Below, piece by piece: positions 38,054 through 55,422 of a stretch of DNA of 64,000 nucleotides. The notes under the pieces were generated by a model. That model was not told the DNA's origin and made no database searches. It worked only from the letters and a program-made list of their open reading frames with translations. The stretch is from Rhizobium tumorigenes (GTDB taxonomy: Bacteria > Pseudomonadota > Alphaproteobacteria > Rhizobiales > Rhizobiaceae): positions 186,001 through 250,000 of the forward strand of contig NZ_CP117256.1 of NCBI RefSeq assembly GCF_003240565.2. The letters are read 5' to 3'. A program made the translations under genes and the position numbers. Position 1 is the stretch's first letter. Every line of letters begins with the position of its first letter.

Positions 38054-38568
38054 GGGTGTGGATCTCCCGGCCCGTGGGCCAATTGAGCAGCTTCAAGCCG
38101 CGCCGATGCGTTGAGCGCACCGCGAATGATCGAATGATAGCCGGTGCAGCGGCAGATATTGCCCTCGAGCGCAGAAAGAATCTCCGCCTCGCCAGCAGCC
38201 GGCAGGTCGATGAACAGTGCCGTCAGGGCCATCAGGAAGCCGGGCGCGCAGTAGCCGCACTGGAAAGCATTTTCTTCGGCCAGCGCTGCCTTCACGACCC
38301 GCGCGATCTCGAAGGCATCGATCCCCTCCGGCGTGACGATGTCTGCATCCGGCAGCTGCCATGCCATGACCAGGCAACCATTGACGGCAAGGCCGTTCAT
38401 AAACACGGTGCAGGCGCCGCATCGGCCGATGCCGCAGGCGATCTTGGTGGCGGTGAGACCGAGTTCGTCGCGCAACAGTTCGGCTAGCCGCATATCCGGC
38501 GGCACTTCGAGGGCGACCGTTTCGCCGTTGAGGCGGAAGTTGACGTGCGTCGTCGCCACGGTGCTCAT
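38050..38568 (-). CDS. 2Fe-2S subunit of a molybdenum hydroxylase
   Basis: 172 residues from ATG 38568. Two [2Fe-2S] motifs: ACGIGRCGACTVFMNG with a later Cys in AVNGC, and QCGYCAPGF with GNICRCTGY. It corresponds to the small subunit of xanthine dehydrogenase/CoxS-type enzymes and passes electrons from the Mo site to FAD. The ATG overlaps the stop of the large subunit by four bases. A longer frame upstream is antisense-like and was not used. Confidence 0.92.
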   Translation of the reverse strand: MSTVATTHVNFRLNGETVALEVPPDMRLAELLRDELGLTATKIACGIGRCGACTVFMNGLAVNGCLVMAWQLPDADIVTPEGIDAFEIARVVKAALAEENAFQCGYCAPGFLMALTALFIDLPAAGEAEILSALEGNICRCTGYHSIIRGALNASARLEAAQLAHGPGDPHP

Positions 38569-41500: not shown

Positions 41501-41711
41501 TGCGGATGATCTTGTCGTCGAGCGAGATACCGGTCATCTCGCCTATGCGCCCGAGATCGATCAGTCTTGCCGGTTTCGCCGCACTTTTTGCCCACTCGAG
41601 TTGCAGGGCCGTCCCGCCGGCGACGAGACGCGCATCCTCGAAATCCCGCATCATGCCGAGGGCATTCCCGACGGACGCCGGATGGAGCACGGTGAAGTCG
41701 GCGCGGGTCAT
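38565..41711 (-). CDS. Molybdenum hydroxylase, fused FAD and Mo-cofactor subunits
   Basis: 1048 residues. Residues 1-285 are a CoxM/XdhB-like FAD domain (AGGTALQLEWAKSA, and IGTIGGNIAGRNGCLLPPMLALDA). Residues from about 300 form the CoxL/XdhC-like Mo domain (VRYKGDAVAAVAAVDE, TGGAFGGKDE, GAFRGFGANQ), ending with the active-site Glu region GAGELGIGAIAPAIANA. With the separate 2Fe-2S subunit this makes a two-polypeptide enzyme. Usual layouts are separate subunits or FeS-FAD fusion, so FAD-Mo fusion is unusual. It probably hydroxylates an N-heterocycle, given guanine deaminase and a BMP importer nearby. It lies two bases after the Rieske-less oxygenase gene. Confidence 0.9.
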   Translation of the reverse strand: MTRADFTVLHPASVGNALGMMRDFEDARLVAGGTALQLEWAKSAAKPARLIDLGRIGEMTGISLDDKIIRIGALTPLSALLRDPLVAERLAMLAVSAASVAGPAVRNIGTIGGNIAGRNGCLLPPMLALDACLEIARTGGTGRESLRHWLSQPATPDEVIKAVILPETFPVFRWTTRKIGLRAAFTPSVIGISGLIGLTDGRIETVRLAVGGGIVAPTRLVATEASLGGLAWADVDWDALHARLIDEISAPDDMFRSGRYRRHVAANALVHGLAGLPELPARSRRCRLEAPPLVAEIRLSRRDQPQRWHTRPDVEAKIAGQLAYLTDRRMSGMLVGRILRAGVGHARIVSIDTRDAEALPGVAAVVTHRDINGVNAFGIVVQDQPALCFDKVRYKGDAVAAVAAVDERTAQAALDLIKVEYAALPLVTDPLQALADDAAAVHEGGNLQRSLHFSRGNVVQGFATAAHIVERVYTTPRQMHGFMETEGGYAEVEAGGVLSIFAGGQHGARDRQQLARILGRPEETIRVVTSPTGGAFGGKDELTVQPALALLAEKTGKPVGIHLSRAESVVAGVKRNPMTIRMRTACDADGRLLAQEVDVLSDAGAYASLGPGVLETALEHVAGPYIIDNVETRGRLAYTNNGVCGAFRGFGANQMTYAIECQMDLLADLCGLTPVDIRRRNLRQPGAPGYLGQIVSTSERLSEMLDAAAASPLWQEAGGVGPEEIVGVGMALNYQGNGLGSLVPDPAGGRLALSKDGFIEAAYGLDEMGQGLPTSIKAAVADRLGCGRDDVLPVTGDTHLAPDSGSTTASRGGYVVWQVAKSAGALLAPQLLEAAGLKIGLPAMSLRLAPCGFADAGSNSGDLLLTYRELARSLGPDALPSATVAFDFPKTDYEAGNARYIFAFGACLVRVAVNRVTGSVRVMEIRQHTAAGPVIDVAAYLGQMEGGAIQGLGFTLTEDAMMHDATNVNGNFDSYMMPGIRDSASVMSVYALEDLDAGDELGPRGAGELGIGAIAPAIANAVADAIGHRPLSLPLSPEAILDAMAGRA

Positions 41712-41713
41712 CG

Positions 41714-42583
41714 TCAGCCAGCCCCCATCGTTGTGCCGAAACGGATACCCTTTTCCTTCAGCCAGCGGCGGTAGGCGACGGAGGAGCTGTCTGCGCGGGT
41801 CGGGATTTCCTGGCGCGGTTCCAGTGGCAACAGAAGCGGCCGCTGGTTCTCGACGACGATGCGATCCTGCAGGAAAATGATCTGCTCGAAGTGTAGCAGC
41901 GAGGTATGCGTCGAGGCGTTGTCGACCAGATACATGACGGGCTGGGCGCGACAGAGCCCCTCTTCCATCGGCTGGATGAACAGCGCAATGGCGTCGAGCC
42001 GATCCGGCGCTGTGGGGCAGACGCGGTAGAGCATGACGCAGAAAGGCGTGGGCACGCGGTAGGTCAGTTGCACGAAGGTGCCTTCGCTCTCGGTGGCAGC
42101 AATGCGCGGCTGGAAGAAGGTGCAGTTGGTCGCCCAGACCTCGTCGACATCGCGGCGGACCTCACTCAGATAGCCCGGCACTTCGGTGTGCGGTTCCGAA
42201 CCGAGGATGTCTGTGTGGACGAACGGGAAATGTGCCATGTCGAGGAAATTTTCGACGACGCGAAGGCCTGATGCCCGCATCCTCACCCAGCCGCAGGGTA
42301 CAAACCGGCGATCGGTCTCCGAGGCTTCCGAGATGTCGAAGATGTCCCTGTTCGGATGGCCGAGCGTCGTCCAGACGCAACCGTATTTCTCCTGCGCAGG
42401 CAAGGGGGCGTCAGACGCCACGCCGGAATGCACTTCGCAAATGACGATCCGCCCGCCTTGCTGGCGCACGATCTCGATGTCCTGCCCGAGCAACCGCGTC
42501 CGCACGGGCACTCCGGTGACGTCCGCTGCGGTTTCGACAGCGTACCACTCGTCCAGTGCAGCCCTGTCGGATGTCTTTGCCAT
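41714..42583 (-). CDS. Rieske-less oxygenase catalytic subunit (NdmC-like), paralogue 1
   Basis: 289 residues. The mononuclear-iron domain is complete: ENFLDMAHFPFVH gives N112, D115, H118 and H123, and FLQDRIVVENQRP gives the probable third ligand Asp. Between residues 44 and 66, where C-x-H...C-x2-H of the Rieske cluster would stand, there are only about 20 residues with no such motif. It therefore needs an external Rieske donor, most likely the protein at 48399. NdmC (7-methylxanthine N7-demethylase subunit) is the known precedent. It is 50-60% alike by eye to the protein at 54571. It sits between the deaminase and Mo-hydroxylase genes. Confidence 0.85.
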   Translation of the reverse strand: MAKTSDRAALDEWYAVETAADVTGVPVRTRLLGQDIEIVRQQGGRIVICEVHSGVASDAPLPAQEKYGCVWTTLGHPNRDIFDISEASETDRRFVPCGWVRMRASGLRVVENFLDMAHFPFVHTDILGSEPHTEVPGYLSEVRRDVDEVWATNCTFFQPRIAATESEGTFVQLTYRVPTPFCVMLYRVCPTAPDRLDAIALFIQPMEEGLCRAQPVMYLVDNASTHTSLLHFEQIIFLQDRIVVENQRPLLLPLEPRQEIPTRADSSSVAYRRWLKEKGIRFGTTMGAG

Positions 42584-42591
42584 GGAGGCTC

Positions 42592-43974
42592 CTATTCAGC
42601 CTTCGTCCACTGCGCCGTGCCGCCGGCGTTCTCTGCCAGCCATGCCGCACGGCGAGCAAAATGCGGCGGTGCGATGCGGTGGATCTCGGCGATGATTGCC
42701 TTCATGTCGCCGGTCTTAAGCATGCCGTCCTCGACTAGGATCTTGCCGTCGACCATCGTCATGCTGACATCGCCGCCGCGAACGGCGTGGACGAGGTTGT
42801 GCTGAAGGTTGAAATAGGGGTCTTCACCGAAAACCGGCGTCATGCGCGGCGTATCGGTGCGCACGGCGATCAGATCCGCCCGCTTGCCCGCTTCCAGCGA
42901 GCCGATCTCGTGATCGAGCCCGATGGCGCGTGCACCTGATATCGTCGCCATGCGCAGGACGTCCCAGCTATCCATCGCGGCCGCATCGAGATCCTTCAGC
43001 TTGCCGAGCAGGGAGGCGACCTTCATTTCCTCGAACATGTCGAAGTTGTTGTTTTCCTTCTCGCCATCCGTGCCGATCCCCACCGGTACGCCGGCTGCCA
43101 GCATATCGCCAACGAGGGCGATGCCGCTTGCAAGCTTCATGTTGCTGACCGGGTTATGGGCGATGGAGACCTTGTACCTCGAGATGAGCTCGATCTCTGC
43201 CGAATCGAGCCAGACCCCGTGGGCGATCATGGTGCGCGGTGCCTCGAAGAAGCCGAGCTCTTCGAGCGCAAACATCGGCCGCTTGCCATAGCGCTTGCCG
43301 AACTCTGCCAGCTCGATCTCCGCTTCGCTGCAATGGGTGTGAAAGCCGGTGTCATATTTTTTGGCAAGGGCGATGGCGCGTTGCTGGCCTGCCTCGTCGG
43401 CATAGAAGAGGTGTTCGAGCCCGACCCATACGTTGATGCGCCCATCCGCCTTGCGATGCCAGGTCTCGATCATCGCCTCGTTCATGTCGAGCGTGTCGAA
43501 ATAGTTATATTCCGGGTGCTCGCCGACATAGGGCACGGCCACGAGCCGGTTGCCGATGGCGGCTGCAGCCTTTGCGCTGCCGTCCATGTATCGCCACATG
43601 TCGACCACGGTCGTCGTGCCGCCGAGAACAGATTCCGCGTAACAGAGCCAAGACGCCGCCTCCGCCTCGTGCGGCTGCAGCATGCGGTGCATCGGGTTGA
43701 TATGCAGGGTCAGCCAGTCCCAGACGGGCAGGTGCTCCGCCGTGCCGCGCAGGAAACCGGAATGGGCGTGGGCATTGATGAGCCCGGGCATCAGGACGGA
43801 ATTCTCGATCTTTCTGACGGACACCTCCGGATGTTCGGCCACGAGTTCGGCAAGCGGCGCCACCGCCTCAATGCGTCCGCCGTCGATCAGTACGGCACCA
43901 CCCGTCACGACGCGATTTGCCGGATCCATGGTCAGGAGATGGTCGCCGGCGATGATCTGTCTTGCACTTGCCAT
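42592..43974 (-). CDS. TrzA/AtzA-type amidohydrolase (aminoheterocycle deaminase)
   Basis: 460 residues from ATG 43974. Metal motifs NAHAH, HTHCSEAE, IAHNPVSNMKLASG and GIGTDGE are those of the SAH/8-oxoguanine/melamine deaminase group of metal hydrolases. The likely reaction is hydrolytic deamination or dechlorination of an N-heterocycle, and it is distinct from the guanine deaminase at 55433. It lies eight bases upstream of the Rieske-less oxygenase gene. Confidence 0.87.
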   Translation of the reverse strand: MASARQIIAGDHLLTMDPANRVVTGGAVLIDGGRIEAVAPLAELVAEHPEVSVRKIENSVLMPGLINAHAHSGFLRGTAEHLPVWDWLTLHINPMHRMLQPHEAEAASWLCYAESVLGGTTTVVDMWRYMDGSAKAAAAIGNRLVAVPYVGEHPEYNYFDTLDMNEAMIETWHRKADGRINVWVGLEHLFYADEAGQQRAIALAKKYDTGFHTHCSEAEIELAEFGKRYGKRPMFALEELGFFEAPRTMIAHGVWLDSAEIELISRYKVSIAHNPVSNMKLASGIALVGDMLAAGVPVGIGTDGEKENNNFDMFEEMKVASLLGKLKDLDAAAMDSWDVLRMATISGARAIGLDHEIGSLEAGKRADLIAVRTDTPRMTPVFGEDPYFNLQHNLVHAVRGGDVSMTMVDGKILVEDGMLKTGDMKAIIAEIHRIAPPHFARRAAWLAENAGGTAQWTKAE

Positions 43975-44015
43975 GATGGGTTCCAATTTCGTTTATCCGG
44001 TCCTGCACCGAGGGC

Positions 44016-45584
44016 TCAGGTCCCGGTCGCAGTGAGCAGGAAGTCGGCCGCCCGCTCGCCGATCATCGTAACCGGCGCGTGGGTATTGCATGTCGGGATA
44101 ATGGGGATGACCGAAGCGTCGGCAATCGTCAGCCCGGCGACGCCCATCACCCTCAGCCTGCTGTCGACCACAGCCATCTCCCCGCTGCCCATCGCGCAGG
44201 TTCCGCAGACATGGAAAAAGGTCGAGCAGGCGTTGCGGATGTAAGCGATGATGTCCTTTCGGCCGAGCATCGCCGGCGGGGCTGCGTATCCGCCGAACCA
44301 GTCCGCATAGGCGGGCGTTGCCGCGAGCGCCATTATCGTTTCCACCGAAGTGACGAGGGCGTCGAGATCACTCGGTTCAGCGAGGTAATTGGGCTGGATT
44401 TCCAGCCCGCCGCCCGGCTCCGGGCTCAGCAGCCTCAAATAGCCGACGCTCTTCGAGCGCATCAGCCCGCAGCCGATCGAAAAGACGTCACTGGGAAGAT
44501 CATAAAGTTGACGAATGCGCGGTTCGGCGCTGTTGCCCTGGACGGGAAAGGCGTGCAGGTCGGCTTGCGGCAGATGAGCGCTCGACTTCCAGTTCATCAT
44601 CGTGCCGCCGCCATTGCCGATCGTCGGCCCAAGCGGCTGCCTGGCGCGAAAGACGCAGGCCTGCACCAGCGGATGATCCTGGAGGTTGCGGCCGACGCCT
44701 GCAAGTGCGGCACGGACGTCTATCCCGAGCCGCTTCAACTCGGCGGGATCGCCGATGCCGGACATCATGAGCAGACGCGGCGTGTCGATCGCTCCAAGGG
44801 CGAGAACGACGCCGGTCGTTGCTTCAGTCTCGTGCGGACGGCCGTCGACCAGATGGGTAACGGAAACGCACCGGCCGTTTGCGATCCCGAGGCGGATCGC
44901 GAGCGAATTTGTCACCACTGTCAGCCGCTCGTTGTCGAGCACCGGCTCGAGATAGCCTTTCGCCGAACTCCAACGCTTGCCGCCGGATATGTTGAAATTG
45001 GAAACGGCAGCACCCTCGTTGTCGGGGCCGTTGGGATCGTCGATGACGGGAATGCCGAGCGCCCGGGCGCCGTCGAGCATCGCCGCGGCTGTCGGGTGCA
45101 GTGTCGCACATCGCTCGATGCGCAACGGGCCGCTTGCACCGCGCAGGTCCGATGCACCGTCCTCCCAGTCTTCCGAACGCTTGAAGAACGGGAGCATGTC
45201 CTTGAAAGACCACCCCTTTGCGCCGGCAGCTTCCCAGGCATCGTAGTCCATCGGATGGCCGCGATACCACATCATCGCATTGACGCTGCTGGAGCCGCCG
45301 AGCACCTTGCCGCGCGGAATACCGATGACGCGATTGTTGACCGCAGGCGTCGGCGCGTAGTCGTAGCCCCAGTCGTAGCGGCTGCGGCCGAGCGGCACCC
45401 AGGACGCCGGGTCTTCAATTTCGGGAATGCCGAAGCCCGAGCTTCCGGCTTCGATCAAGAGCACGCTCGCGTCGCTGCCGTCGATCAGACGCCGTGCCAC
45501 CGCGCAGCCGCCCGACCCCGATCCGACGACGATATAGTCGTAGGCTCTGGAAAGCGGCTTCTGGGGAATGGCGATGGCGGACAT
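44016..45584 (-). CDS. GMC family FAD-dependent alcohol oxidoreductase
   Basis: 522 residues from ATG 45584, with AGGAAA upstream. FAD motif YIVVGSGSGGCAVARRL, GMC signature GKVLGGSSSVNAMMWYRG and C-terminal HVCGTCAMG with N-T-H-A-P are present. It resembles choline-dehydrogenase-like enzymes and oxidises an alcohol to an aldehyde, probably upstream of the ALDH at 36539. A long open frame beyond 45584 is antisense-like and was rejected. Confidence 0.9.
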   Translation of the reverse strand: MSAIAIPQKPLSRAYDYIVVGSGSGGCAVARRLIDGSDASVLLIEAGSSGFGIPEIEDPASWVPLGRSRYDWGYDYAPTPAVNNRVIGIPRGKVLGGSSSVNAMMWYRGHPMDYDAWEAAGAKGWSFKDMLPFFKRSEDWEDGASDLRGASGPLRIERCATLHPTAAAMLDGARALGIPVIDDPNGPDNEGAAVSNFNISGGKRWSSAKGYLEPVLDNERLTVVTNSLAIRLGIANGRCVSVTHLVDGRPHETEATTGVVLALGAIDTPRLLMMSGIGDPAELKRLGIDVRAALAGVGRNLQDHPLVQACVFRARQPLGPTIGNGGGTMMNWKSSAHLPQADLHAFPVQGNSAEPRIRQLYDLPSDVFSIGCGLMRSKSVGYLRLLSPEPGGGLEIQPNYLAEPSDLDALVTSVETIMALAATPAYADWFGGYAAPPAMLGRKDIIAYIRNACSTFFHVCGTCAMGSGEMAVVDSRLRVMGVAGLTIADASVIPIIPTCNTHAPVTMIGERAADFLLTATGT

Positions 45585-45601
45585 CGAACGATATTTCCTG
45601 T

Positions 45602-46210
45602 TCAGTTGTGCTCGCTGGGGCCCATGATGACGATGCCTTCGCTCGCCTCGACATGGCGGACGAAGATGTATTTGTCCTCCCGGCCATCGCTGTGCTTGCG
45701 TTTGATGTCCGGCTGCACCGTGCCGGCAACCTTGGCGACGATGACATAGGGGGCGTGGGCTGCAAGCCCTGCGGCGCAATGGGCGTCGAACTCTTCCACG
45801 TCGCGTGCCGTGAAGGCATTTTCGATGCCGCAGCCGCGCGCGATGGCAGCGATATCGACACGTCCGAAGGCCGTATGCGTCGGCGGTCCGCCGATCGACT
45901 GGTAGATCTCGTTGTCCCAGACGACGACGAGGAGGTTCTTCGGTTGCTCGTTTCCGAGCGTCGCGAGAATGCCGAGGTTGAACATCATGCCGCCGTCCGT
46001 ATCCAGCGAAACGATGCGCCTGTGTGGCAGGCCGGCGGCAAGCCCGAAGGCCTGGGGCGTGACGCAGCCGAGCTGCTGTTGGAAAAGGCTGGCTTCCCGC
46101 ATATGCGGCGCCGCGTTGTACCATTCGTCGACGCTGCCACCGAGGGAGAGGATGACGAGCTCATCCTTCAGCCGGGCCGAAAGGGCTTTCATGCAATCGA
46201 AGCGTTTCAT
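45602..46210 (-). CDS. TPP-dependent decarboxylase, beta (TPP-binding) subunit
   Basis: 202 residues from ATG 46210. The TPP motif D-G-G...N is visible as SLDTDGGMMFNLG then VVWDNEIYQSIGG. It matches ComE/sulfopyruvate or phosphonopyruvate decarboxylase beta subunits. It overlaps the alpha gene by four bases (ATGA). The pair would decarboxylate a 2-oxo acid to an aldehyde; the substrate here is unknown. Confidence 0.85.
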   Translation of the reverse strand: MKRFDCMKALSARLKDELVILSLGGSVDEWYNAAPHMREASLFQQQLGCVTPQAFGLAAGLPHRRIVSLDTDGGMMFNLGILATLGNEQPKNLLVVVWDNEIYQSIGGPPTHTAFGRVDIAAIARGCGIENAFTARDVEEFDAHCAAGLAAHAPYVIVAKVAGTVQPDIKRKHSDGREDKYIFVRHVEASEGIVIMGPSEHN

Positions 46211-46707
46211 CGGACGATCTCCCCGCCAAGCGCGATTGCCGAATGGTAATAGGCCGCATAGGACCACTTGAAGGCGTCGGTGATGGCCCGCTCGATCGCC
46301 TCTTCCTCGCGCACGATCCGGTACGGAATGCGCAGCGCGTCGAGCACCGGCTCCATGGTTATGCCATGGGGGATCGCCCACCAGTTGTTCTCGCCGAGCT
46401 CACCGCGATAGCTCATCAGCATGACGACCGGGATGCCGGCACCAAGGCCCATGCGCGCCAGGGGTTCGACAGACGCCCTGAGCCCGGAATTTTCCATCAC
46501 CAATGCTGCCCGTTTGCCGGACAGGAAGACCCCGCCACAGATCGCGGCGCCCTCCCCCTCGTTCGTGACGCGGATCGTGCGGATATCGGGATCGGCATCG
46601 AGCGCCGGGTAGAGCTCCTTGAAAAGTGAGTCCGGCAGGTAGCAAACGACGCTCACGCCGGCCTTTTTCAGGCCACGGATGACAGCGTCAACAGCAGATT
46701 TTTTCAT
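46207..46707 (-). CDS. TPP-dependent decarboxylase, alpha (pyrimidine-domain) subunit
   Basis: 166 residues from ATG 46707. The Glu that activates TPP is in TNEGEGAAICGG; MENSGLRASVEPLARMG and PVVMLMSYRGELGE follow the ComD/sulfopyruvate decarboxylase alpha pattern. The two halves of a normal decarboxylase are split into separate genes. The 96-base gap upstream may hold a promoter (see 46748). Confidence 0.85.
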   Translation of the reverse strand: MKKSAVDAVIRGLKKAGVSVVCYLPDSLFKELYPALDADPDIRTIRVTNEGEGAAICGGVFLSGKRAALVMENSGLRASVEPLARMGLGAGIPVVMLMSYRGELGENNWWAIPHGITMEPVLDALRIPYRIVREEEAIERAITDAFKWSYAAYYHSAIALGGEIVR

Positions 46708-46747
46708 CGGGCATCCTCTCTTCCCGGTCAGGGTGACAAATGCCGGA

Positions 46748-46759
46748 TGTTCCGAATAG
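46748..46759. promoter_or_regulatory. Candidate shared operator, copy 1
   Basis: TGTTCCGAATAG in the gap between the decarboxylase alpha gene and the LysR gene. Its core TTCCGAA recurs at 49510-49521 before the BMP importer. It could be the site of the LysR at 46804. Confidence 0.35.
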
Positions 46760-46803
46760 GGTCTTATTTTCGATCCATACAATGCGCCAAAAGCAACATG
46801 TCA

Positions 46804-47733
46804 TCATGTTCGATCTTCCGATCCATCAAGCGACTGCGCCAGAAGCCTGCCCATCGCCGAGGCGGCGTCCGACATTTCCTTCTCCGAGCGCGAGAGAAGC
46901 ATCAGCTTGCGCGGATTGACCTTGGCGTCGTGCAAGGGGACGAACGTCAGCGTCCCATCGGCAATCTCCTGTTCGATGCCGACACGGGTCTGCAGCACCG
47001 TGCCGAGGTCGCGCTTGGCAAGATCGATCATGAGCCCGATGGAGTTGGTGCGCGCGCGGGGCGTGAGGTCGACGAAAGATCGGCTGAAGGCATCCTCGAC
47101 CCAGGCGCCGAGCGTCAGGCTGGCGTCGGACAGGATGACCCGTTCGCCAGCAAGGTCGAACAGCTTCAGTTCCTTCTTCTGCGCATGAGGGCTATCCGGG
47201 AGCGCCAGTACGCCGAGCGGCAACAGCACAGTCGAAATGCGCCGCACATTGCGCGCCACTTTGGCGTCGAACACGACAGCAAGATCGCATTCGCCAGCGG
47301 CCACGGCATCGGCGGCCTGCTGCGATCCCATCACCCTGACATCGACGGAGATCTCCGGGTGCCGCTTCCAGAATTCCTGCAGGGCGTCCGGCATCAATCC
47401 CCGCGAGACGCTTTCGATGATGGCGACGGAGACGGTACCGCGATGCAGTCCGTTGAGATCGTTGATCTCGGTGCAGGCGCGCTTCAGTTCCGAAAGGCTG
47501 AGACGGGCGTGATAGAGCATCAGTTCACCGGCGCTGGTGAGCTTCAGCCGCTGGCGGACACGCTCGAAGAGAGGCGTGCCGAGCTCTTCCTCGAGCTGCT
47601 TCAGGATACGGCTGATCGAGGACGGCGCGACGTTCAGGGCCTGGGCTGCCTGGCGAATGGAGCCAAGACGCGCCACGAGCTGAAAGTAGTGGAGACGGGT
47701 GGCCACCAGCCCGAGCCGAAATGGATCCATCAT
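46804..47733 (-). CDS. LysR family transcriptional regulator of the catabolic island
   Basis: 309 residues. wHTH LGSIRQAAQALNVAPSSISRILKQLEEELGTPLFERVRQRLKLTSAG; the effector domain starts TVSVAIIESVSRGLMPDAL. It lies inside the minus arm, 33 bases after the GST-like gene, not divergent. It probably controls both arms; the effector could be the imported heterocycle. Confidence 0.88.
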   Translation of the reverse strand: MMDPFRLGLVATRLHYFQLVARLGSIRQAAQALNVAPSSISRILKQLEEELGTPLFERVRQRLKLTSAGELMLYHARLSLSELKRACTEINDLNGLHRGTVSVAIIESVSRGLMPDALQEFWKRHPEISVDVRVMGSQQAADAVAAGECDLAVVFDAKVARNVRRISTVLLPLGVLALPDSPHAQKKELKLFDLAGERVILSDASLTLGAWVEDAFSRSFVDLTPRARTNSIGLMIDLAKRDLGTVLQTRVGIEQEIADGTLTFVPLHDAKVNPRKLMLLSRSEKEMSDAASAMGRLLAQSLDGSEDRT

Positions 47734-47766
47734 GCCAACATGCCCATAAGCCGCGCCTTTCCGCTC

Positions 47767-48399
47767 TCAGTGATAATCGGGAATGCCGGGCATGGTCAGG
47801 AAGCCCTTGAGCGAGCGGAAATGCCGGATCCAGCGTCGCAGCGCCGGGAACTCCGCGTGATCGACACAGAAATCGCGGCTGAGGGCGAAGGATGGGAAAA
47901 GCATGAGGTCGCCAAGCGTCGGACCGCTGCCGCAAAACCACTCCAGTCCATCGAAATGGCGGATTGTCATATGGTCGTCCATGATCCGGAAGGCTTTGCG
48001 GGCCGAGGCGCGAAGCGTTGTTTCGTCACCGGGCGTATCGAACAGCGCCTGTAGCCGGGCCGCCACCGCCGGGCCAAGGGCAGTGTCGCCAAAGCCGACC
48101 CATCGGACGACGTCGGCGAAGGCCTTCGGGTCGTGCGGCAGCCACTGTTGCGCCGCGTCGTGCGCCCTGGCAAGATAAAGAAGAACGGGCGCCATGCCGT
48201 AAACGACGAGATCGCCATCCTTGACGACGGGAAGCGTCCCGAGCGGATTGAGAGCCAGCATGGCCGGTTTCCCGTGCTCCTGCCCTGGAAACATGTCGAT
48301 GGCCACGGTCTGCCAATCCAGCCCGAGCATGGATAGCAAAAGACGAGCGCGGTAGCTGTTTTCGTCGAGTTCGTAGCCGTAGAGGGTGATTTCCGGCAT
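47767..48399 (-). CDS. Glutathione S-transferase-like protein (NdmE-like scaffold candidate)
   Basis: 210 residues from ATG 48399. Thioredoxin-like N-domain LYGYELDENSYRARLLLSMLG, cis-Pro region NPLGTLPVVKDGDLVVYG, then a helical C-domain (FCGSGPTLGDLMLFPSFAL). Its start overlaps the stop of the Rieske protein by four bases (ATGA), so the two are made together. In the NdmCDE demethylase a GST homologue, NdmE, is a structural partner of the catalytic and reductase subunits; I infer the same role. Ordinary GST activity is the alternative. Confidence 0.82.
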   Translation of the reverse strand: MPEITLYGYELDENSYRARLLLSMLGLDWQTVAIDMFPGQEHGKPAMLALNPLGTLPVVKDGDLVVYGMAPVLLYLARAHDAAQQWLPHDPKAFADVVRWVGFGDTALGPAVAARLQALFDTPGDETTLRASARKAFRIMDDHMTIRHFDGLEWFCGSGPTLGDLMLFPSFALSRDFCVDHAEFPALRRWIRHFRSLKGFLTMPGIPDYH

Positions 48400-49061
48400 C
48401 AGGCCATCTCCGCCGTTTGCTCGAGTTCGAACCGCATCTTTTCCATTAGGCGGGCGTGGTGCGCCTGCCTGCCGCTTGCCTGCGGGGAAAGAGGGCCGAG
48501 AATGACACCGTGAATGGCGGTCTTGTCGGGGGAGACTCGCTGGACGGCCATGAGCAGCCGGTCGCCATCCGCCGCCAGCAGTCCGGTGTTGGCATCCAGA
48601 TGTTTCATTCCCGCCTGATCGAGCGCCGCGAGCACATCGCTGATCGGACAATCGACATAGAGGCTGCGGACGGGCGCGAATTCTGCGGCACCCACGGCAT
48701 CCGGCAAAACGGCCTCGCTGGATGCCGTCGCCCAGATGATCCCGTAGTCTTCCCGCGCAAGATATGTCGGCACCTTGATGGTCAAAGGCACGTCCAGCGC
48801 AGGATGGGCCGGGATGTAGCGGCACTGACCGGCAGCATCATACTGCCAGCCGTGGTAGAGGCAGGCAATATGGTCGCCGCGCACGAAACCGAAGCTCATC
48901 CGCATGCCGCGATGCGGACAGCGATCCTCCCAGACATGGACGATGCCGCTGCTGTCGCGCCAGACGACGATCTCCTGCCCGTCGACGACGGCACCCGCCG
49001 AGGTTCCGGGCTCGATCGAGGACGAAAGCCCGACCGGCACCCACCCTGCTTCCAGTCTCAT
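48399..49061 (-). CDS. Stand-alone Rieske [2Fe-2S] protein with unknown C-terminal domain
   Basis: 220 residues from ATG 49061, with GAGGAG upstream. Rieske domain residues 7-115: DRCPHRGMRMSFGFV (C48, H50) and IACLYHGWQYD (C67, H70). The roughly 100 residues that follow (for example SLYVDCPISDVLAALDQAG) match neither the oxygenase catalytic fold nor a flavin/ferredoxin reductase. It is the only Rieske cluster in the window and sits beside the GST-like gene. It is the obvious electron donor for the two Rieske-less catalytic subunits, as NdmD's N-terminal Rieske domain is for NdmC. A complete oxygenase is excluded: there is no iron-ligand motif. Confidence 0.87.
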   Translation of the reverse strand: MRLEAGWVPVGLSSSIEPGTSAGAVVDGQEIVVWRDSSGIVHVWEDRCPHRGMRMSFGFVRGDHIACLYHGWQYDAAGQCRYIPAHPALDVPLTIKVPTYLAREDYGIIWATASSEAVLPDAVGAAEFAPVRSLYVDCPISDVLAALDQAGMKHLDANTGLLAADGDRLLMAVQRVSPDKTAIHGVILGPLSPQASGRQAHHARLMEKMRFELEQTAEMA

Positions 49062-49074
49062 GATCCGCTCCTCT

Positions 49075-49314
49075 TCATGCCGCAGCATGTCGCTCGATAT
49101 CCAGGATGATGCAGTCGTAAGGGCCCAGGCTGCAGGCCATCTCGAACGCATCGACGAGATCGCCCTGACCGCGAACCGAAAGAGTGGCGGCTGCACTGTC
49201 GCAGGCGCCGAAATCGATGTCGAGATCCAGCTTGCGGGCGCGATGCGTGGCAAACTCCGTGAAGCTGTCGCAGATCATCTGACCGCGAAAGATAAAGCTT
49301 GCCGCTTCGATCAT
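49075..49314 (-). CDS. Small unknown protein of the Rieske operon
   Basis: 79 residues from ATG 49314, or 86 from 49335. I do not recognise the family. The C-terminal half (SAAATLSVRGQGDLVDAFE and LGPYDCIILDIE) has the strand-helix-strand rhythm of an acylphosphatase-like ferredoxin fold; the three Cys do not form a cluster motif. It is the first gene of the minus arm, 13 bases before the Rieske gene, so it may be an accessory or assembly subunit. Confidence 0.6.
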   Translation of the reverse strand: MIEAASFIFRGQMICDSFTEFATHRARKLDLDIDFGACDSAAATLSVRGQGDLVDAFEMACSLGPYDCIILDIERHAAA

Positions 49315-49509
49315 CGCTCGACCTCGCTCGGGCAAGCGCCGCTCTGCGACCTCCCTAGTGCCTTGACCTGCATGAAAATGACCCGTCTTGCATAAATTTT
49401 CATCGCGCCTTAGTTTTGTGCATCCTATCCGGTTTTTGCCGGAGAGTTCAAGTCGGTTTGGTGACGGAGTTGTTGCCTTTTGCGCCTGAGCGCCTTCGAA
49501 AAATTGGCA

Positions 49510-49521
49510 CTATTCCGAACA
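49510..49521. promoter_or_regulatory. Candidate shared operator, copy 2
   Basis: CTATTCCGAACA in the 385-base divergent gap 49315-49699 between the two arms. It differs by one base from the reverse complement of 46748-46759, and both carry TTCCGAA. The rest of the gap holds no gene, and I saw no purine-riboswitch pattern in it. Confidence 0.35.
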
Positions 49522-49699
49522 AATGCCGTCTGACACTGTGATTGCCGATAGCGTCTTGCGCGCTTGAGATGGACGAAACCGCGCAGATCTATGCCGCTCC
49601 AGAGCCGTTTTCGACCGGGAAGTTGGTCCTCGTCATCTGGCACAGTTGTTGCGTCGCATAAATCAACGCTGGCCGAAGCCGGCTATAAAGGGGGATACC

Positions 49700-50821
49700 A
49701 TGCTGGACTTGCGTACGCTTTCAAGACGCGGATTTTTGAACATGAGTGCCGCTGGCGCCGCCTCGCTGATGCTGCCGACAGGCTTTGCCAGCCAGGCACT
49801 GGCCGCCTCGGCATTTCCCCCGATCAAGGAAGAAGACGCTGTTGTCGGTTTCGGCCATGTCGGCCCTATCTCCGACGAGGGATGGACCTGGTCCCACCAT
49901 CAGGGTCTCCTGGCCGTTAAGAAGGCCTATCCCAAACTCAAGAAGGTTCTCGAGGTCGAGAACATTCCCTACTCGGCCGACGCCACACGCACCTATCGCC
50001 AGTTCGTCAGCGAAGGCGCCAACATCATCTTCGATACGTCGTCCAACGGCGATTTCCTGCATGGGGTGGTCAAGCGCGCCACCGACGTCGCCTTCATGGA
50101 ATGCGACGGCCGCGTGACGATGGACAATCTCGGCTGGTACTACCTCGCCCACTGGTATCCGACTTATGTGATCGGTGTTGCCGCCGGCCATCTGTCTAAA
50201 ACCGGCAAGCTCGGCTACATCGCCTCTTTCCCGGTCGCTTCCGTCTATGCATCGACCAACGCATTCCTGATGGGCGCTCGCAGCGTCAACCCGAACGCCG
50301 TGTTGCAGACCATCGTCATCAACTCGTGGTTCGACCCGCAGGCAGCGACGCAGGCCGGCACGGCGTTGATCGACAACGGCTGCGACTTCCTCTTCGGTAT
50401 TATGGATGAGGCCGGATATCTCCAGGTCGCGGAAAAGCGTGGCGTCTGGGCGGCGATGTGGAACACCGACATCCGCCGCTACGGCCCGAAATCCTATGTC
50501 TCGTCCGTGCTGATCGACTTCACCAAATTCTATGTCGACCAGGTCGGCAAGCGCCTCGCCGGCACCTGGACGCCGACCGAGCAGCTGTTTGCCATGGGTG
50601 CGGGCGTCGATCGCGACAAATGGGGCGAAAAGGTTCCGACCGACGTCGCGGCGGCGGCCGACGCAGTCCGCCAGAAGATGGTTGGCGGCTGGTCCCCGTT
50701 TACCGGAGAGATCAAGGATGCAAGCGGAAAGGTACGTGTTGCTGCCGGCCAGACGATGACCGACCTGGAACTCTACAACTGGGACTGGTCGGTCGAGGGC
50801 GTCTCGGGCCTTTCCGGCTGA
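49700..50821 (+). CDS. BMP family substrate-binding protein, Tat-exported
   Basis: 373 residues from ATG 49700, with GGGGGA upstream. Twin-arginine signal (SRRGFLNMSAAGAASLMLPTGFA). The BMP fold begins DAVVGFGHVGPISDEGWTWSHHQGL with YIASFPVASVYASTNAFLMGARSVNP and GCDFLFGIMDE. BMP/PnrA-like proteins mostly bind nucleosides or purine-like ligands, which fits the guanine deaminase in the same arm. It is the first gene of the plus arm. A hairpin follows. Confidence 0.9.
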   Translation: MLDLRTLSRRGFLNMSAAGAASLMLPTGFASQALAASAFPPIKEEDAVVGFGHVGPISDEGWTWSHHQGLLAVKKAYPKLKKVLEVENIPYSADATRTYRQFVSEGANIIFDTSSNGDFLHGVVKRATDVAFMECDGRVTMDNLGWYYLAHWYPTYVIGVAAGHLSKTGKLGYIASFPVASVYASTNAFLMGARSVNPNAVLQTIVINSWFDPQAATQAGTALIDNGCDFLFGIMDEAGYLQVAEKRGVWAAMWNTDIRRYGPKSYVSSVLIDFTKFYVDQVGKRLAGTWTPTEQLFAMGAGVDRDKWGEKVPTDVAAAADAVRQKMVGGWSPFTGEIKDASGKVRVAAGQTMTDLELYNWDWSVEGVSGLSG

Positions 50822-50847
50822 TCCCGGTCGACAACCACCAATCCGGG

Positions 50848-50867
50848 ACCCGGCCTTGCGGCCGGGT
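50848..50867 (+). terminator. Intercistronic hairpin after the binding-protein gene
   Basis: Perfect 8-base stem ACCCGGCC / GGCCGGGT with loop TTGC, 26 bases after the stop. It probably raises binding-protein mRNA over the membrane components, as in many ABC operons, rather than ending transcription. Confidence 0.6.
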
Positions 50868-50894
50868 TCGCTGCTTTCCTTCCGGTGCATATTG

Positions 50895-52469
50895 ATGACT
50901 GAAAACGCGATCCGTTTCAAAGCTCCTGCCGGTGCGCCGCCTTTGGTCCAGCTGAAGGGTATCTCCAAGTATTTTCCAGGCGTCGTCGCCAACGAGAATG
51001 TCGACCTCGATGTCATGCCGGGTGAGATCCACGCCCTCTTGGGCGAAAACGGCGCCGGCAAGTCGACCCTGATGAACATCCTGACCGGTATCTACCAGCC
51101 GGACGCGGGCGAAATCATTATCGACGGTTACGCCAAGCAGTTCGCCACCCCGCTGCAGGCCATCGCTGCGGGGATCGGTATGGTGCATCAGCATTTCAAG
51201 CTCGTGCAGGCGTTCACGGTTGCCGAAAACATCCATCTCGGCTGGTCTGAGACACCCCGCCGTGCCTCGGCGCCTGTTCTGGAAGCCCGGACTGAGGCGC
51301 TTGCCGAAAAATTCAATCTCCAGACCCGACCGGGCGCGCGGGTGAGCGACCTGTCGACGGGTGAGCAGCAGCGCGTCGAAATCCTGCGCGTGCTTGCCCG
51401 CCAGGCGCGCGTGCTGATCCTCGACGAGCCGACGGCAGTGCTGACCCCTGCCGAAGCCCGCGAGCTCTTCAAGGCCTTGCGCAACTTCGTCGCCAGCGGC
51501 AATGCCGTCATCTTCATCAGCCATAAGCTCGACGAGGTGCTGGAAATCTCCGATCGCATCAGCATCCTGCGCGGCGGCCGCAAGATGGCGACGGTCGAGG
51601 CGGCCGAGTGCAATCCGCGCATGCTTGCAAAGCTCATGGTCGGTCGAGATATCGTGCTTGCCGACATGCGCCAGCGCTCGCCGACCGCGGCTGCAATGTC
51701 GGCGACACCGGCGCTCAGCCTTGAGCACGTCTCGGCTTCGGGCGACAACGGCAATCAGGCATTGTTCGATGTCTCGCTCGACGTCCGGGCCGGCGAGATC
51801 GTCGGCATTGCGGGCGTCGCTGGCAACGGGCAGCGCGAGTTCAGCCAGGTGCTGACAGGCATTCGCCCGCTCAGCGCAGGCCGCATCCTTATCGATGGCA
51901 GCGCGGTGGAGAATGGCAATGCGGCATTTTTTGCAGATAGCGGCATCGGCCACATTCCGGAAGACCGACTGCACAGCGGCCTGGCGCCGGCGCTGAGCAT
52001 CACCGTCAATGCCGTCATGCGCGAATACAAGACACCGCGGATCTCGGCGGGAGGCATCTACCGGCCGGCCTCGGCAGCGGCGCTGGCCAAGGAAATTGCC
52101 GCCGCTGCCGAGGTGGCTATTCCGGATTTCGCCATGCCCGTCCGCAATCTGTCGGGCGGCAACCAGCAGCGGCTGGTGGCGCGTCGCGAAATGCGGATCG
52201 CCCACCGCGTGCTGGTGGCCGCCTATCCCAGCCGCGGCCTCGATGTCGGCGCCATCAACACGATGCTGCGCTATATCGTCGAACTTCGCGACGCCGGCGC
52301 CGGTATCATCCTCATTTCCGAAGAACTCGAGGAACTGCTGAACGTCTCAGACCGGATCGCTGTTCTCTATGAAGGCCGGATCATGGGCATCGTCGATACC
52401 GACAACGCCGACCTCGACGAGATCGGCCTGCTCATGGGCGGCCGCGCACCAACCCACGAGGCCGCCTGA
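50895..52469 (+). CDS. ABC transporter ATP-binding protein, two NBDs (BMP-type importer)
   Basis: 524 residues from ATG 50895; a start at 50856 would lie in the hairpin. NBD1 Walker A GENGAGKS, signature LSTGEQQRVEIL, LDEPTAVLTP. NBD2 has the degenerate GVAGNGQREF and LSGGNQQRLVARREM with PSRGLDVG. It matches the NupB/YufO-type ATPases that pair with BMP proteins. It energises uptake of the island's substrate. Confidence 0.92.
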   Translation: MTENAIRFKAPAGAPPLVQLKGISKYFPGVVANENVDLDVMPGEIHALLGENGAGKSTLMNILTGIYQPDAGEIIIDGYAKQFATPLQAIAAGIGMVHQHFKLVQAFTVAENIHLGWSETPRRASAPVLEARTEALAEKFNLQTRPGARVSDLSTGEQQRVEILRVLARQARVLILDEPTAVLTPAEARELFKALRNFVASGNAVIFISHKLDEVLEISDRISILRGGRKMATVEAAECNPRMLAKLMVGRDIVLADMRQRSPTAAAMSATPALSLEHVSASGDNGNQALFDVSLDVRAGEIVGIAGVAGNGQREFSQVLTGIRPLSAGRILIDGSAVENGNAAFFADSGIGHIPEDRLHSGLAPALSITVNAVMREYKTPRISAGGIYRPASAAALAKEIAAAAEVAIPDFAMPVRNLSGGNQQRLVARREMRIAHRVLVAAYPSRGLDVGAINTMLRYIVELRDAGAGIILISEELEELLNVSDRIAVLYEGRIMGIVDTDNADLDEIGLLMGGRAPTHEAA

Positions 52470-52470
52470 G

Positions 52471-53514
52471 ATGGCTGCATCACTTCGCCTTCAGCGTCTG
52501 CCGTCCGCGTCGCCCGTCATAGCCTTTGCGGCGCGCGCCGCAGCCATTGTCATTGCCCTCGTCTTTGCCGGTATCGTCCTGTCGCTCACCGGGGCCGATC
52601 CTCTCAATCTCGGCCTGCAGGTGTTGAGCGCCAGCTTCGGATCGAGTTTTGGATTGGAGGATCTGGGGCTGCTGCTCATTCCCCTGATCCTCACCGGGCT
52701 GTCGGTCTCTGTCGCCCAGCAGATCGGCGCCTGGAATATCGGGGCGGAAGGCCAGTTCTACGCAGGGGCCTTCGCTGCCGCCGCTGTCGGTCTCTTCGTG
52801 CCGGGACCGCCGGTCGTCATCCTGCCGATGATGTTCGTCGCCGGACTTGTCGGCGGCGCCGTCTGGATCCTCGTGCCGACGCTTGCGCGCGCCTACGCCG
52901 GTGTCAACGAGCTGATCACGACGCTACTGCTCAATTTCGTCGCGATCCTGCTCGTCTACTATGTCTCGACGAACGCCTGGCGCGACAAGATGGCGAATTC
53001 GGCCACCAAACGACTTTCCGCTGAAATCCCGGACTTCTGGGGCTCAGTCCACTGGGGCCTGCCGATTGCCGTTATCGTCGCGCTGGCCGTCGCGGCCTTG
53101 CTGGCGTTCTCGCGCTGGGGCTATGAAGTGCGCCTCGTCGGTTCGAACCCATCGGCTGCGCGCTATGCCGGCATGCCGGTCCGCAGGCACCTGATTACCG
53201 TCATGCTGCTCTCCGGTGCCATCGCCGGTCTCGCCGGCATGCTGGAGATCGCCGGCACGGTGCATCGCCTGCAAGGGGGCATCTCCAACAATTACGGCTA
53301 TCTCGGCATTATGGTCGCGGTTCTCGCCCGTAGCTCAGCGGTCGGCGTCATTTTTTCCGCAGCGCTGATGGCCTTTATCCTCAATTCCGGAATCATCCTG
53401 CAGACGCAGGGGCTGACGACGTCGACCGTGCTGGCAATCACCGGATTGATCCTGTTTCTAACCGCGATCGGCGACGAACTCGCCCATTACCGTATCGCCC
53501 GCGACAAGGCTTGA
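52471..53514 (+). CDS. ABC transporter permease 1 (BMP-type importer)
   Basis: 347 residues from ATG 52471, one base after the ATPase stop (TGAGATG). About eight to nine membrane segments; family motifs IGAWNIGAEGQFYAGAFAAAAVG and GSNPSAARYAGMPVRRHL. It forms the channel with the permease at 53526. Confidence 0.9.
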   Translation: MAASLRLQRLPSASPVIAFAARAAAIVIALVFAGIVLSLTGADPLNLGLQVLSASFGSSFGLEDLGLLLIPLILTGLSVSVAQQIGAWNIGAEGQFYAGAFAAAAVGLFVPGPPVVILPMMFVAGLVGGAVWILVPTLARAYAGVNELITTLLLNFVAILLVYYVSTNAWRDKMANSATKRLSAEIPDFWGSVHWGLPIAVIVALAVAALLAFSRWGYEVRLVGSNPSAARYAGMPVRRHLITVMLLSGAIAGLAGMLEIAGTVHRLQGGISNNYGYLGIMVAVLARSSAVGVIFSAALMAFILNSGIILQTQGLTTSTVLAITGLILFLTAIGDELAHYRIARDKA

Positions 53515-53525
53515 GGAGACAGAAC

Positions 53526-54461
53526 ATGGACCTTCTGACCGGGCTTTTCACCACGGCGTTTCTTGCCGGCGGCGTGCTGGCGCTGGCCGCCCTCGGCGAG
53601 GTGCTGGCCGAGCGCGTCGGCGTCGTCAATCTCGGCGTCGAAGGGCTGATGGCCATGGGCGCGCTGACAGCGGTTGCCACCGTCGCGTCATTCCCGTCGC
53701 CAACGGTCGGTTTTCTCGCGGCCCTCGGCGTCGGCGCTGTCTTCGGCATGATGTTCGCGTTCGCCACTGTGATCCTCAGGGCAAATCAGGTGCTCTGCGG
53801 CCTTGCCTTGACACTGATGGGCAATGGTCTTGCCTCGACGATCGGCCGCGCCTATTCCGGCATGCCCGCCCGTGCGGTGTTTGCCGGTATCGAGGTACCG
53901 CTTCTCAGCAGCATCCCGATCTTCGGGAAGGCCTTCTTTTCGCAGAACATCCTCGTCTATCTCATCTATATCATCCTGCCGGTCGGGCTCAGCTACCTGA
54001 TGCTCCGAACCCGCCACGGCCTCAACATGCGGGCTGTCGGCGAAAATCCGGCTGCGGCAGATGCTGCCGGCATTTGCGTCAATCTCATCCGCTTCGTCTA
54101 CGTGACGGCCGGCTCCGCGCTGGCGGCGGGTTCCGGTGCCTATCTGACGTTGACCTTCGTGCCCTCGTGGTCCGATGGGGTCGTCGCCGGTCGCGGCTGG
54201 ATTGCCGTCGCACTGGTAATTTTTGCCGGCTACCGGCCGATCCCGGCTGTCCTGTCCGGGCTGCTGTTCGGCTTCATCACGGCACTCGGCTTCGTCGGCC
54301 AAGCGCGTGGCTGGCCGTTTGCGCCTGCCTTTCTGTCGATGCTGCCCTATCTTGGCACCATGGCCTTCATCATCGTGCCGGTGCTCACCTGGCAGCGGAT
54401 GCGCCGGATCATGGCGGCACCGGCGGCTATCGGCGTGCCCTATTACAGGGATGTGCGCTGA
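53526..54461 (+). CDS. ABC transporter permease 2 (BMP-type importer)
   Basis: 311 residues from ATG 53526, with GAGGAG upstream. Motifs VLAERVGVVNLGVEGLMAMG and GENPAAADAAGICVNLIRF mark the second BMP-type permease. It ends 109 bases before the second Rieske-less oxygenase gene, and no gene is seen in that gap. Confidence 0.9.
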   Translation: MDLLTGLFTTAFLAGGVLALAALGEVLAERVGVVNLGVEGLMAMGALTAVATVASFPSPTVGFLAALGVGAVFGMMFAFATVILRANQVLCGLALTLMGNGLASTIGRAYSGMPARAVFAGIEVPLLSSIPIFGKAFFSQNILVYLIYIILPVGLSYLMLRTRHGLNMRAVGENPAAADAAGICVNLIRFVYVTAGSALAAGSGAYLTLTFVPSWSDGVVAGRGWIAVALVIFAGYRPIPAVLSGLLFGFITALGFVGQARGWPFAPAFLSMLPYLGTMAFIIVPVLTWQRMRRIMAAPAAIGVPYYRDVR

Positions 54462-54570
54462 TGCAGGAGGCATGCGCCACGCGGGTATTTGTCGATTTAG
54501 CGATGGACCAATGGCCCGCAGATCATCAAGATGAGGCGGCAGGCAGTCGATCGAGAAACGGGAGCACTCC

Positions 54571-55422
54571 ATGAGCAGATGTTCGGACCAGGCAGCCCTT
54601 AATCAATGGTATCCGCTCGATACGGAGACGGAGATTCCCTTCGGGACATCGTCGAGCCGCCTGCTCGGCAGCGATCTTGTGGTAACGAGAGAGGCGGAAG
54701 GTTTAATCGCGGTTACGGCAGAAGACGGTGCCCTTCCGATCATCAAACGCTTCGGCCTTGTCTGGACGACGTTGGGGCAACCGGCCGGCGGCCTCTTTGC
54801 GCTGCCGGAGGCTGACGAGGAAGACCGTCGTGTCGTCAACTGCGGTTCCGTGATGGTTCGCGCATCCGGGCTACGGATTGTCGAGAACTTTCTCGACATG
54901 GCGCATTTTCCGTTCGTGCACACCGACATTCTGGGCGCCGAGCCCCACACCGAAGTGATGCACTACAATGCCGAGATCCGCCGGGATGTCGACGAGGTCT
55001 GGGCAACGAACTGCCAATTCTTCCAGCCGCAGGCCGCCCTATCCGCGACTGGCGGCATCATGACCGACTATATCTACCGCGTCATGACCCCGTTTGCGAC
55101 GCTGCTCTACAAGACATGCCCGAACGCGGCCAACCGATGGGATGTCATATGCCTGTTCGTCCAGCCGCTCGATCCCGGCCGCTGCCGCGCCCATCCCGTC
55201 ATGTTCCTGATCGACGATGTCTCGACGACCACCGAGCTGGTGCATTTCCAGCAACTGATCTTCTTGCAGGACCGCATCATTCTCGAAAACCAGCGCCCGG
55301 TGCTGTTGCCGATGGAGGCGCGCTCGGAGATCCCGACGCGGGCCGATGCCAGCTCCATCGCCTATCGTCGCTGGCTGAAGGAGAAGGGCATCACCTACGG
55401 CACTTCAGCGATGGCAGCGTAG
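54571..55422 (+). CDS. Rieske-less oxygenase catalytic subunit (NdmC-like), paralogue 2
   Basis: 283 residues. Iron site ENFLDMAHFPFVH (N106, D109, H112, H117) and FLQDRIILENQRP are intact. The region between residues 40 and 60 lacks C-x-H...C-x2-H, as in paralogue 1. It is placed between the importer and guanine deaminase. The first 100 residues differ most from paralogue 1, while the iron site and C-terminus (RADASSIAYRRWLKEKGI) are nearly identical, so the pair may differ in donor contact or substrate. It needs the Rieske protein encoded on the other arm. Confidence 0.85.
   Translation: MSRCSDQAALNQWYPLDTETEIPFGTSSSRLLGSDLVVTREAEGLIAVTAEDGALPIIKRFGLVWTTLGQPAGGLFALPEADEEDRRVVNCGSVMVRASGLRIVENFLDMAHFPFVHTDILGAEPHTEVMHYNAEIRRDVDEVWATNCQFFQPQAALSATGGIMTDYIYRVMTPFATLLYKTCPNAANRWDVICLFVQPLDPGRCRAHPVMFLIDDVSTTTELVHFQQLIFLQDRIILENQRPVLLPMEARSEIPTRADASSIAYRRWLKEKGITYGTSAMAA

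Follow-up and report, generated by a model that had tools for sequence, protein, structure and literature searches.

Among described enzymes, the nearest in build to the system analysed here is NdmCDE, the 7-methylxanthine N7-demethylase of Pseudomonas putida CBB5 (PMC4408171, PMC10380055), which was described as the first known instance in which a Rieske domain has been detached and fused to a reductase (PMC4408171). NdmC is insoluble by itself and assembles with NdmD and NdmE in a 3:3:3 ratio (PMC10380055). NdmA and NdmB are listed as alpha3alpha'3 (PMC12445004). Clusters homologous to NdmCDE have been noted mainly in Sinorhizobium and Mesorhizobium (PMC4408171), and a coffee-borer survey, whose text does not contain 'rhizobi', reported scattered single ndm homologues (PMC8055839). 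Here, we describe a related system in a 64,000-nucleotide stretch of Rhizobium tumorigenes DNA (contig NZ_CP117256.1, positions 186,001 to 250,000; hereafter the window), consisting of two catalytic subunits (CAT-1 and CAT-2), a separate Rieske subunit (RSK), a GST-like partner and an acylphosphatase-like protein (ACYP; Table 1). This architecture is well supported by residues, predicted folds, linkage, gene order and lineage, and the system is likely to be a purine N-demethylase of the NdmCDE type in reorganised form, in which complementary, half-disabled alpha subunits work with a borrowed reductase.

Both CAT proteins contain the iron-site motif N-x2-D-x2-H-x4-H together with the QD...E region (N106, D109, H112, H117 and D234 in CAT-1) and are 57% identical to each other. 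In a Pfam scan, VanA_C (PF19112) was the sole family above cut-off for CAT-2 (E = 6.1e-16) and CAT-1 (E = 1.6e-20), with no Rieske family matched in either. In alignments of 61 CAT and 67 RSK sequences, all from the separate-RSK lineage and including the window's own copies, the iron-site motif was present in 61/61 CAT and 0/67 RSK sequences, while the Rieske motif C-x-H...C-x2-H showed the reverse pattern (0/61 CAT, 67/67 RSK); D234 and E239 were likewise invariant among the aligned CAT sequences. The same held in a second set of 29 CATs that included NdmD-type loci (iron site 29/29, Rieske motif 0/29). These results confirm the original prediction that both CATs (41714 and 54571) retain the iron site and the QD...E region without a Rieske motif, with no hidden motif in any of the 61 aligned family members, and that the 220-residue protein at 48399 carries the sole linked Rieske motif (C48/H50/C67/H70) and no iron site. 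As all 61 sequences retain the iron site unchanged, the CAT proteins are not decaying; the predicted model of CAT-1, which aligns over both domains, indicates that they are alpha subunits without cluster loops. At E <= 1e-5, 3513 proteins matched CAT-1, a number that may include full-length oxygenases; the 120 listed are 282-301 residues long, and the names shown for relatives are all generic, e.g. 'aromatic ring-hydroxylating dioxygenase subunit alpha'. A close sequence relation to HpxD, the Mo-independent xanthine hydroxylase subunit, was looked for and not found, an annotated HpxD being 31% identical to CAT-1 over 76% of the CAT-1 length, compared to 41-48% for the listed Rieske-less relatives from Sinorhizobium meliloti, P. 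putida and Variovorax.

RSK, originally described as a free-standing Rieske protein, is indeed a separate chain, but it is not a bare Rieske domain, as residues 128-219 are predicted to fold as a reduced version of the catalytic domain. Since the predicted model can be aligned with both domains of Rieske-oxygenase alpha subunits, RSK is predicted to be a whole alpha subunit whose catalytic domain is shrunken and iron-less, and no ferredoxin. The two-domain fold of an alpha subunit is thus seen in the predicted models of both RSK and CAT-1, whereas the two centres, normally in one chain, are held only by the CAT and RSK pair. The RSK reading frame most likely starts at 49061, as in the R. tumorigenes annotation, rather than at the TTG of a longer open reading frame. 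Within its own genome (assembly 99.98% complete), CAT-1 and CAT-2 are the only PF19112 matches, and PF00355 (Rieske) has only three, namely RSK, one oxygenase and one further protein; the latter two we take to be a GbcA-like oxygenase, which is adjoined by a reductase gene, and PetA. For the CATs, no Rieske source other than RSK is evident, nor are there evident partners for RSK besides the CATs. A 302-residue protein seen elsewhere (P0122) contains an RSK-like sequence together with a GST N-terminal domain and is possibly a natural RSK-GST fusion.

To examine linkage, we used a draw of 199 genomes from the order and a phylum-wide draw of 398 genomes. The CAT profile was matched in 35/199 order genomes, four of which (family f38) contain a full-length protein with both motifs in one frame; a Rieske-profile match lay nearby on the same contig in all of the remaining 31. 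Phylum-wide, 22/398 genomes matched, 15 with Rieske-less proteins (10 of them new) and seven in frames of 329-400 residues, where both motifs were present in all five that were inspected. Taken jointly, every genome with a Rieske-less CAT (41/41) holds a linked Rieske partner, either a separate RSK (26/41) or an NdmD-type fusion with a reductase (15/41), and a GST gene lies near RSK in all except one (40/41; exception G095). Checked against chance, the split system is more than a coincidence, because the motifs are invariant in the alignments and linkage is complete. Of the 26 separate-RSK genomes, 22, spanning several families, have ACYP no more than 1.5 kb from RSK, compared to 0/15 of the fusions. 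A larger named set, comprising the best 80 of at least 560 confirmed relatives and therefore leaning to close relatives, has a separate RSK no further than 10 kb away, or up to where the contig ends, in 77/80 loci, with ACYP in 68 of these 77; the nine without ACYP come from five acetic acid bacteria, Telmatospirillum, Rhodococcus and two contigs shorter than 5 kb, and the three loci that lack RSK consist of AMD-CAT-XDH blocks resembling that of CAT-2 (AMD, amidohydrolase; XDH, xanthine dehydrogenase). Clustering of conserved neighbours was dominated by shadow open reading frames.

Phylogenetic trees place the separate-RSK CATs in one group, both in a tree including 14 of the 80 named loci picked for spread (37 rows, SH-aLRT 91) and in a second tree (25 rows, SH-aLRT 98), in which genome G553 falls on the other side. 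The corresponding Rieske domains also form one group (33 rows, SH-aLRT 92) in a tree where four full-length proteins were entered twice, with the two split groups unchanged. CAT-1 and CAT-2 fall into different sub-groups of the separate-RSK CAT group. The separate-Rieske form is one of two main lineages and not a local oddity. A third arrangement of parts was seen in Variovorax paradoxus VAI-C (L008:9986-11800), where the reductase is fused to the catalytic part and RSK is separate. Two further catalytic genes depart from the common pattern: in G506 (L215:9314-9958), a 230-residue frame matches only from model residue 66, as if the Rieske-domain remnant were wholly gone, unless the gene is damaged or misassembled, and in Cupriavidus EM10 (L211:8989-9830), the gene is spread over two frames and has a dehydrogenase gene of the formaldehyde-detoxification type close by.

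The window shares with NdmCDE a Rieske-less iron subunit, a Rieske domain on another chain, a GST-like partner and a purine context (PMC4408171, PMC10380055). For sequence comparison, we used the NdmCDE-like loci of P. putida KF715 and S. meliloti pSymA instead of CBB5 NdmC itself, and it is by these loci, not by CBB5 NdmE, that the GST-like partner is recognised as a common component next to the Rieske-less, iron-binding catalytic subunit. Their CATs are 44-47% identical to CAT-1, the N-terminal part of their NdmD-like proteins matches the RSK profile with 132-133 bits and their GSTs are 33-39% identical to the window's; unlike in the window, the Rieske part is fused to the reductase and there is no ACYP. 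NdmCDE carries its Rieske domain on the NADH reductase NdmD, whereas the window encodes the separate 220-residue RSK and no linked reductase, adds ACYP, places two CATs in different gene blocks that share one Rieske chain, and has a guanine deaminase and an XDH-like enzyme as neighbours. The system would work like NdmCDE, the last of the caffeine-demethylating enzymes, but a defining feature of NdmCDE, a Rieske domain on the reductase, was looked for and is not found here. Sequence relatives, gene order, co-occurrence and trees all support the earlier proposal of a distant, reorganised NdmCDE relative with two catalytic paralogues. On S. meliloti pSymA (L010:10001-14261), two tandem catalytic paralogues accompany one NdmD-like protein and one GST, adjoining a BMP importer, with an XDH-like enzyme further on.

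Two other groups of oxygenases are related but not split. SxtT and GxtA (SxtDIOX; saxitoxin Rieske oxygenases) are the nearest solved structures, by sequence and fold, for CAT-1 and RSK; unlike the window's proteins, they hold both centres in one chain and are alpha3 homotrimers (PMC12445004). The full-length oxygenases of family f38 (G038, G079, G114 and G144) are CAT-profile relatives encoded beside BMP importer genes in 4/4 and beside a guanine deaminase gene in 2/4 genomes; unlike the CATs, they have the Rieske motif and the iron site in one frame of 338-396 residues. In a literature search covering titles and the beginnings of abstracts, with most subscription papers falling outside it, we recognised no description of the separate-RSK form or of an acylphosphatase-like partner, and the reduced catalytic domain of RSK did not turn up either.

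The coupling of RSK to a GST-like gene, also part of the original prediction, holds in that the two genes overlap, although the junction is TGATG, with one shared base, rather than ATGA. Six aligned NdmE-like GSTs, including the window's copy, have an invariant PG-x-EH segment; near the N-terminus, the window's copy has Ser where the other five have Cys. The ACYP gene, absent from the initial gene list, is annotated as hypothetical in R. tumorigenes and as acylphosphatase for its counterpart in Rhizobium sp. C104. PF00708 was matched by 17/19 ACYP relatives (best E 1.7e-8), placing these in the acylphosphatase family, while the window's own copy alone gave no match. The catalytic residues of acylphosphatase are Arg and Asn, and the residues aligned with these differ in the ACYP family profile. 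ACYP is probably a further, non-catalytic subunit. A scan of positions 49000-49800 for consensus promoters and terminators found nothing.

Together, these features lead us to infer a hetero-oligomer, an electron path, a substrate, a source of reductase and a role for ACYP. A Rieske non-heme-iron oxygenase would be divided here such that RSK holds the [2Fe-2S] cluster and CAT-1 or CAT-2 the mononuclear iron. In known oxygenases, the Rieske cluster lies ~12 Å from the iron of the next subunit, with a conserved Asp bridging the ligand histidines (PMC12445004). Because ordinary Rieske oxygenases already pass electrons between neighbouring ring subunits, a CAT-RSK pair could rebuild a working interface, with electrons moving from RSK His50/His70 via CAT Asp109 to the CAT iron; Asp109 is invariant despite the CATs having no cluster of their own, as expected if a partner chain supplies it. 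On the model of the 3:3:3 NdmC-NdmD-NdmE complex, CAT, RSK and the GST-like protein would assemble together, the last as an NdmE-like structural partner and ACYP as a further subunit, receiving electrons from a reductase encoded elsewhere. One RSK/GST/ACYP set may serve two catalytic subunits of different specificity, CAT-1 paired with an importer and guanine deaminase, and CAT-2 with another deaminase and the XDH-like enzyme.

Regarding the substrate, CAT-1 stands between a BMP-type importer and a guanine deaminase above its curated cut-off. In the named set, 18 of the 80 loci have a match to the guanine deaminase profile (GUAD), 33 a strong AMD match and 63 a BMP match, while at the same thresholds GUAD or AMD was matched in 0/12 NdmD-type loci of the order set. 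The reaction would probably be the oxidative removal of an N-methyl (or N-alkyl) group from a purine, possibly from an N-methylated guanine; for CAT-1, the simplest reading would be that an N-methylated guanine is demethylated either before or after its deamination, given that NdmC is the nearest characterised relative by build. A more detailed picture, unlikely as a whole, would be a mixed ring, functional only as such, of two reciprocally inactivated alpha subunits, in which a catalytically dead acylphosphatase-fold subunit replaces the dedicated reductase as the docking point for a housekeeping donor, and RSK is shared by two CATs opening two purine routes, one of them dedicated to N-methylguanine (e.g. 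7-methylguanine from RNA turnover).

Reductase-profile matches near the system were found in 0/22 ACYP genomes (13-20 kb examined; 64 kb for the window) and in 0/80 named loci within 10 kb or to the contig end. At E <= 1e-10, the reductase part of NdmD had no match in 10/19 separate-RSK order genomes (one printed as zero, nine deduced from their absence among the 108 matching genomes). A re-search of 14 of the 19 at E <= 1e-3 found none in G067 and G180 and at least one, mostly partial, match in the other 12; G180 has a single NAD_binding_1 match genome-wide (11 genomes examined). These searches of separate-RSK order genomes revealed no electron donor shared by the carriers of the system. In the window's own genome, two NdmD-reductase-like matches at E <= 1e-5 were considered as dedicated reductases in trans and rejected: C1:3410148 (the best, 37% identity) lies among genes (L188:4701-9859, near C1 3.41 Mb) that we take to be a dimethylamine/trimethylamine catabolism cluster, and C1:455225 adjoins the GbcA-like oxygenase. 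A housekeeping electron donor would be plausible, because the reductases of two-component oxygenases can be promiscuous (PMC12445004). The NdmD-like gene of P. putida 1290 (L210:9871-11626) is annotated as three coding sequences.

Separate Rieske ferredoxins are common in three-component systems, so that RSK might be an ordinary Rieske ferredoxin for another oxygenase, with the CATs working without it or decaying; its Rieske domain also matches ferredoxins, though more weakly (naphthalene dioxygenase ferredoxin, 2e-6) than GxtA (1.4e-23). A Rieske-type ferredoxin, however, is a small single-domain protein, whereas RSK has 220 residues, with a second folded domain in the predicted model, which aligns to whole alpha subunits, and we rejected the ferredoxin assignment on this predicted fold. 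With just one other oxygenase-type Rieske protein in the genome, a reductase gene beside that protein, CAT-Rieske linkage in 41/41 genomes and an invariant iron site in the CATs, we regard this explanation as very improbable.

Several observations weigh against the preferred reading of a purine N-demethylase with a borrowed reductase. The GMC, thiamine-diphosphate and aldehyde dehydrogenase genes by CAT-2 are not explained by simple demethylation, and 28 of the 80 named loci lack a GUAD, strong AMD or strong XDH-like match at the thresholds used. No NdmD/VanB-type reductase was found in the 64 kb at the window locus, and, by our reading, both reductase-like matches of the genome lie in other clusters. 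Two of the 26 separate-RSK genomes (G010 and G553) have neither ACYP nor a reductase nearby; the two others without ACYP nearby (G085 and G506) have a separate reductase near RSK, along with an ACYP-like match 6-7 kb off. In raw counts, ACYP and reductase strongly exclude one another (22/0 against 2/17, Fisher 1e-9), but the pattern reflects few independent events, with three changes each on the tree and a sign test that is not significant, so that independence from ancestry could not be shown. The oxygenase may be split as described and yet hydroxylate or dealkylate other compounds that resemble purines or pteridines but bear longer side chains, which the three enzymes surrounding CAT-2 would then process; the importer's binding protein has an atrazine-locus binding protein as its best solved relative (5.6e-57), AMD resembles triazine/deoxyadenosine-type deaminases, and the full fold is nearest to saxitoxin hydroxylases. 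CAT-1 nevertheless adjoins a clear guanine deaminase and the nearest characterised system of the same build is a purine N-demethylase (PMC4408171), making such substrates a somewhat unlikely choice. Slightly more credible, though we lean against it, is that ACYP is a lineage passenger with no role in the oxygenase and that the reductase is an ordinary, unlinked one. ACYP gain and reductase lack track the tree closely, two genomes hold neither gene and oxygenase reductases can be promiscuous (PMC12445004); proximity to RSK in 22/26 genomes of several families and in 68/77 named loci is, on the other hand, much for a passenger.

The arrangement is of wider interest in that donor and acceptor have seemingly been separated onto two chains; either half could then be modified or exchanged independently, which opens communication between the centres to direct testing. 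A further suggestion is that the NdmCDE build, called unique among caffeine degraders (PMC4408171), is one branch of a purine-linked family found in rhizobia, Bradyrhizobium, Rhodobacteraceae, acetic acid bacteria and one Rhodococcus, in which most separate-Rieske members present the puzzle of showing no adjoining reductase gene.

The block from 36.5 to 56.8 kb has the same gene order as part of plasmid pRt932 of Rhizobium tumorigenes 932, whose counterpart of CAT-1 is 99.6% identical.

Table 1 Features of the split oxygenase locus and its neighbours (window positions).
Feature	Position	Strand	Remark
Aldehyde dehydrogenase	36539-38053	-	End of CAT-2 block; L005 annotation
Xanthine-dehydrogenase-like enzyme	38050-41711	-	Directly downstream of CAT-2
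XDH-like [2Fe-2S] subunit	38050-38568	-	
XDH-like FAD+molybdopterin subunit	38565-41711	-	
CAT-2, catalytic subunit, 289 aa	41714-42583	-	Iron-site residues as in CAT-1; no Rieske motif
AMD, amidohydrolase of deaminase/chlorohydrolase kind	42592-43974	-	Directly upstream of CAT-2; below every specific cut-off shown
GMC oxidoreductase	44016-45584	-	
Two-subunit thiamine-diphosphate enzyme	45602-46210 + 46207-46707	-	Sulfopyruvate-decarboxylase-like, below cut-off
LysR-type regulator	46804-47733	-	Annotation of the same gene in L005
GST-like partner (NdmE-like)	47767-48399	-	TGATG overlap with RSK
RSK, Rieske subunit, 220 aa	48399-49061	-	Rieske motif C48/H50/C67/H70, then predicted shrunken, iron-less catalytic domain
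ACYP, acylphosphatase-like, 79 codons	49075-49314	-	Upstream of RSK; catalytic residues apparently lost
BMP-type ABC importer	49700-54461	+	Ends taken from R. tumorigenes annotation
BMP binding protein	49700-50821	+	
BMP importer ATPase	50895-52469	+	
BMP importer permeases	52471-53514 + 53526-54461	+	
CAT-1, catalytic subunit, 283 aa	54571-55422	+	VanA_C domain; Rieske-domain core without cluster loops
Guanine deaminase	55433-56803	+	Directly after CAT-1; TIGR02967 419.9 bits, cut-off 375.4

In Rhodococcus sp. CH91 (L171), a thiamine-diphosphate frame similar to that of the window stands beside the system, which hints at transfer between phyla.

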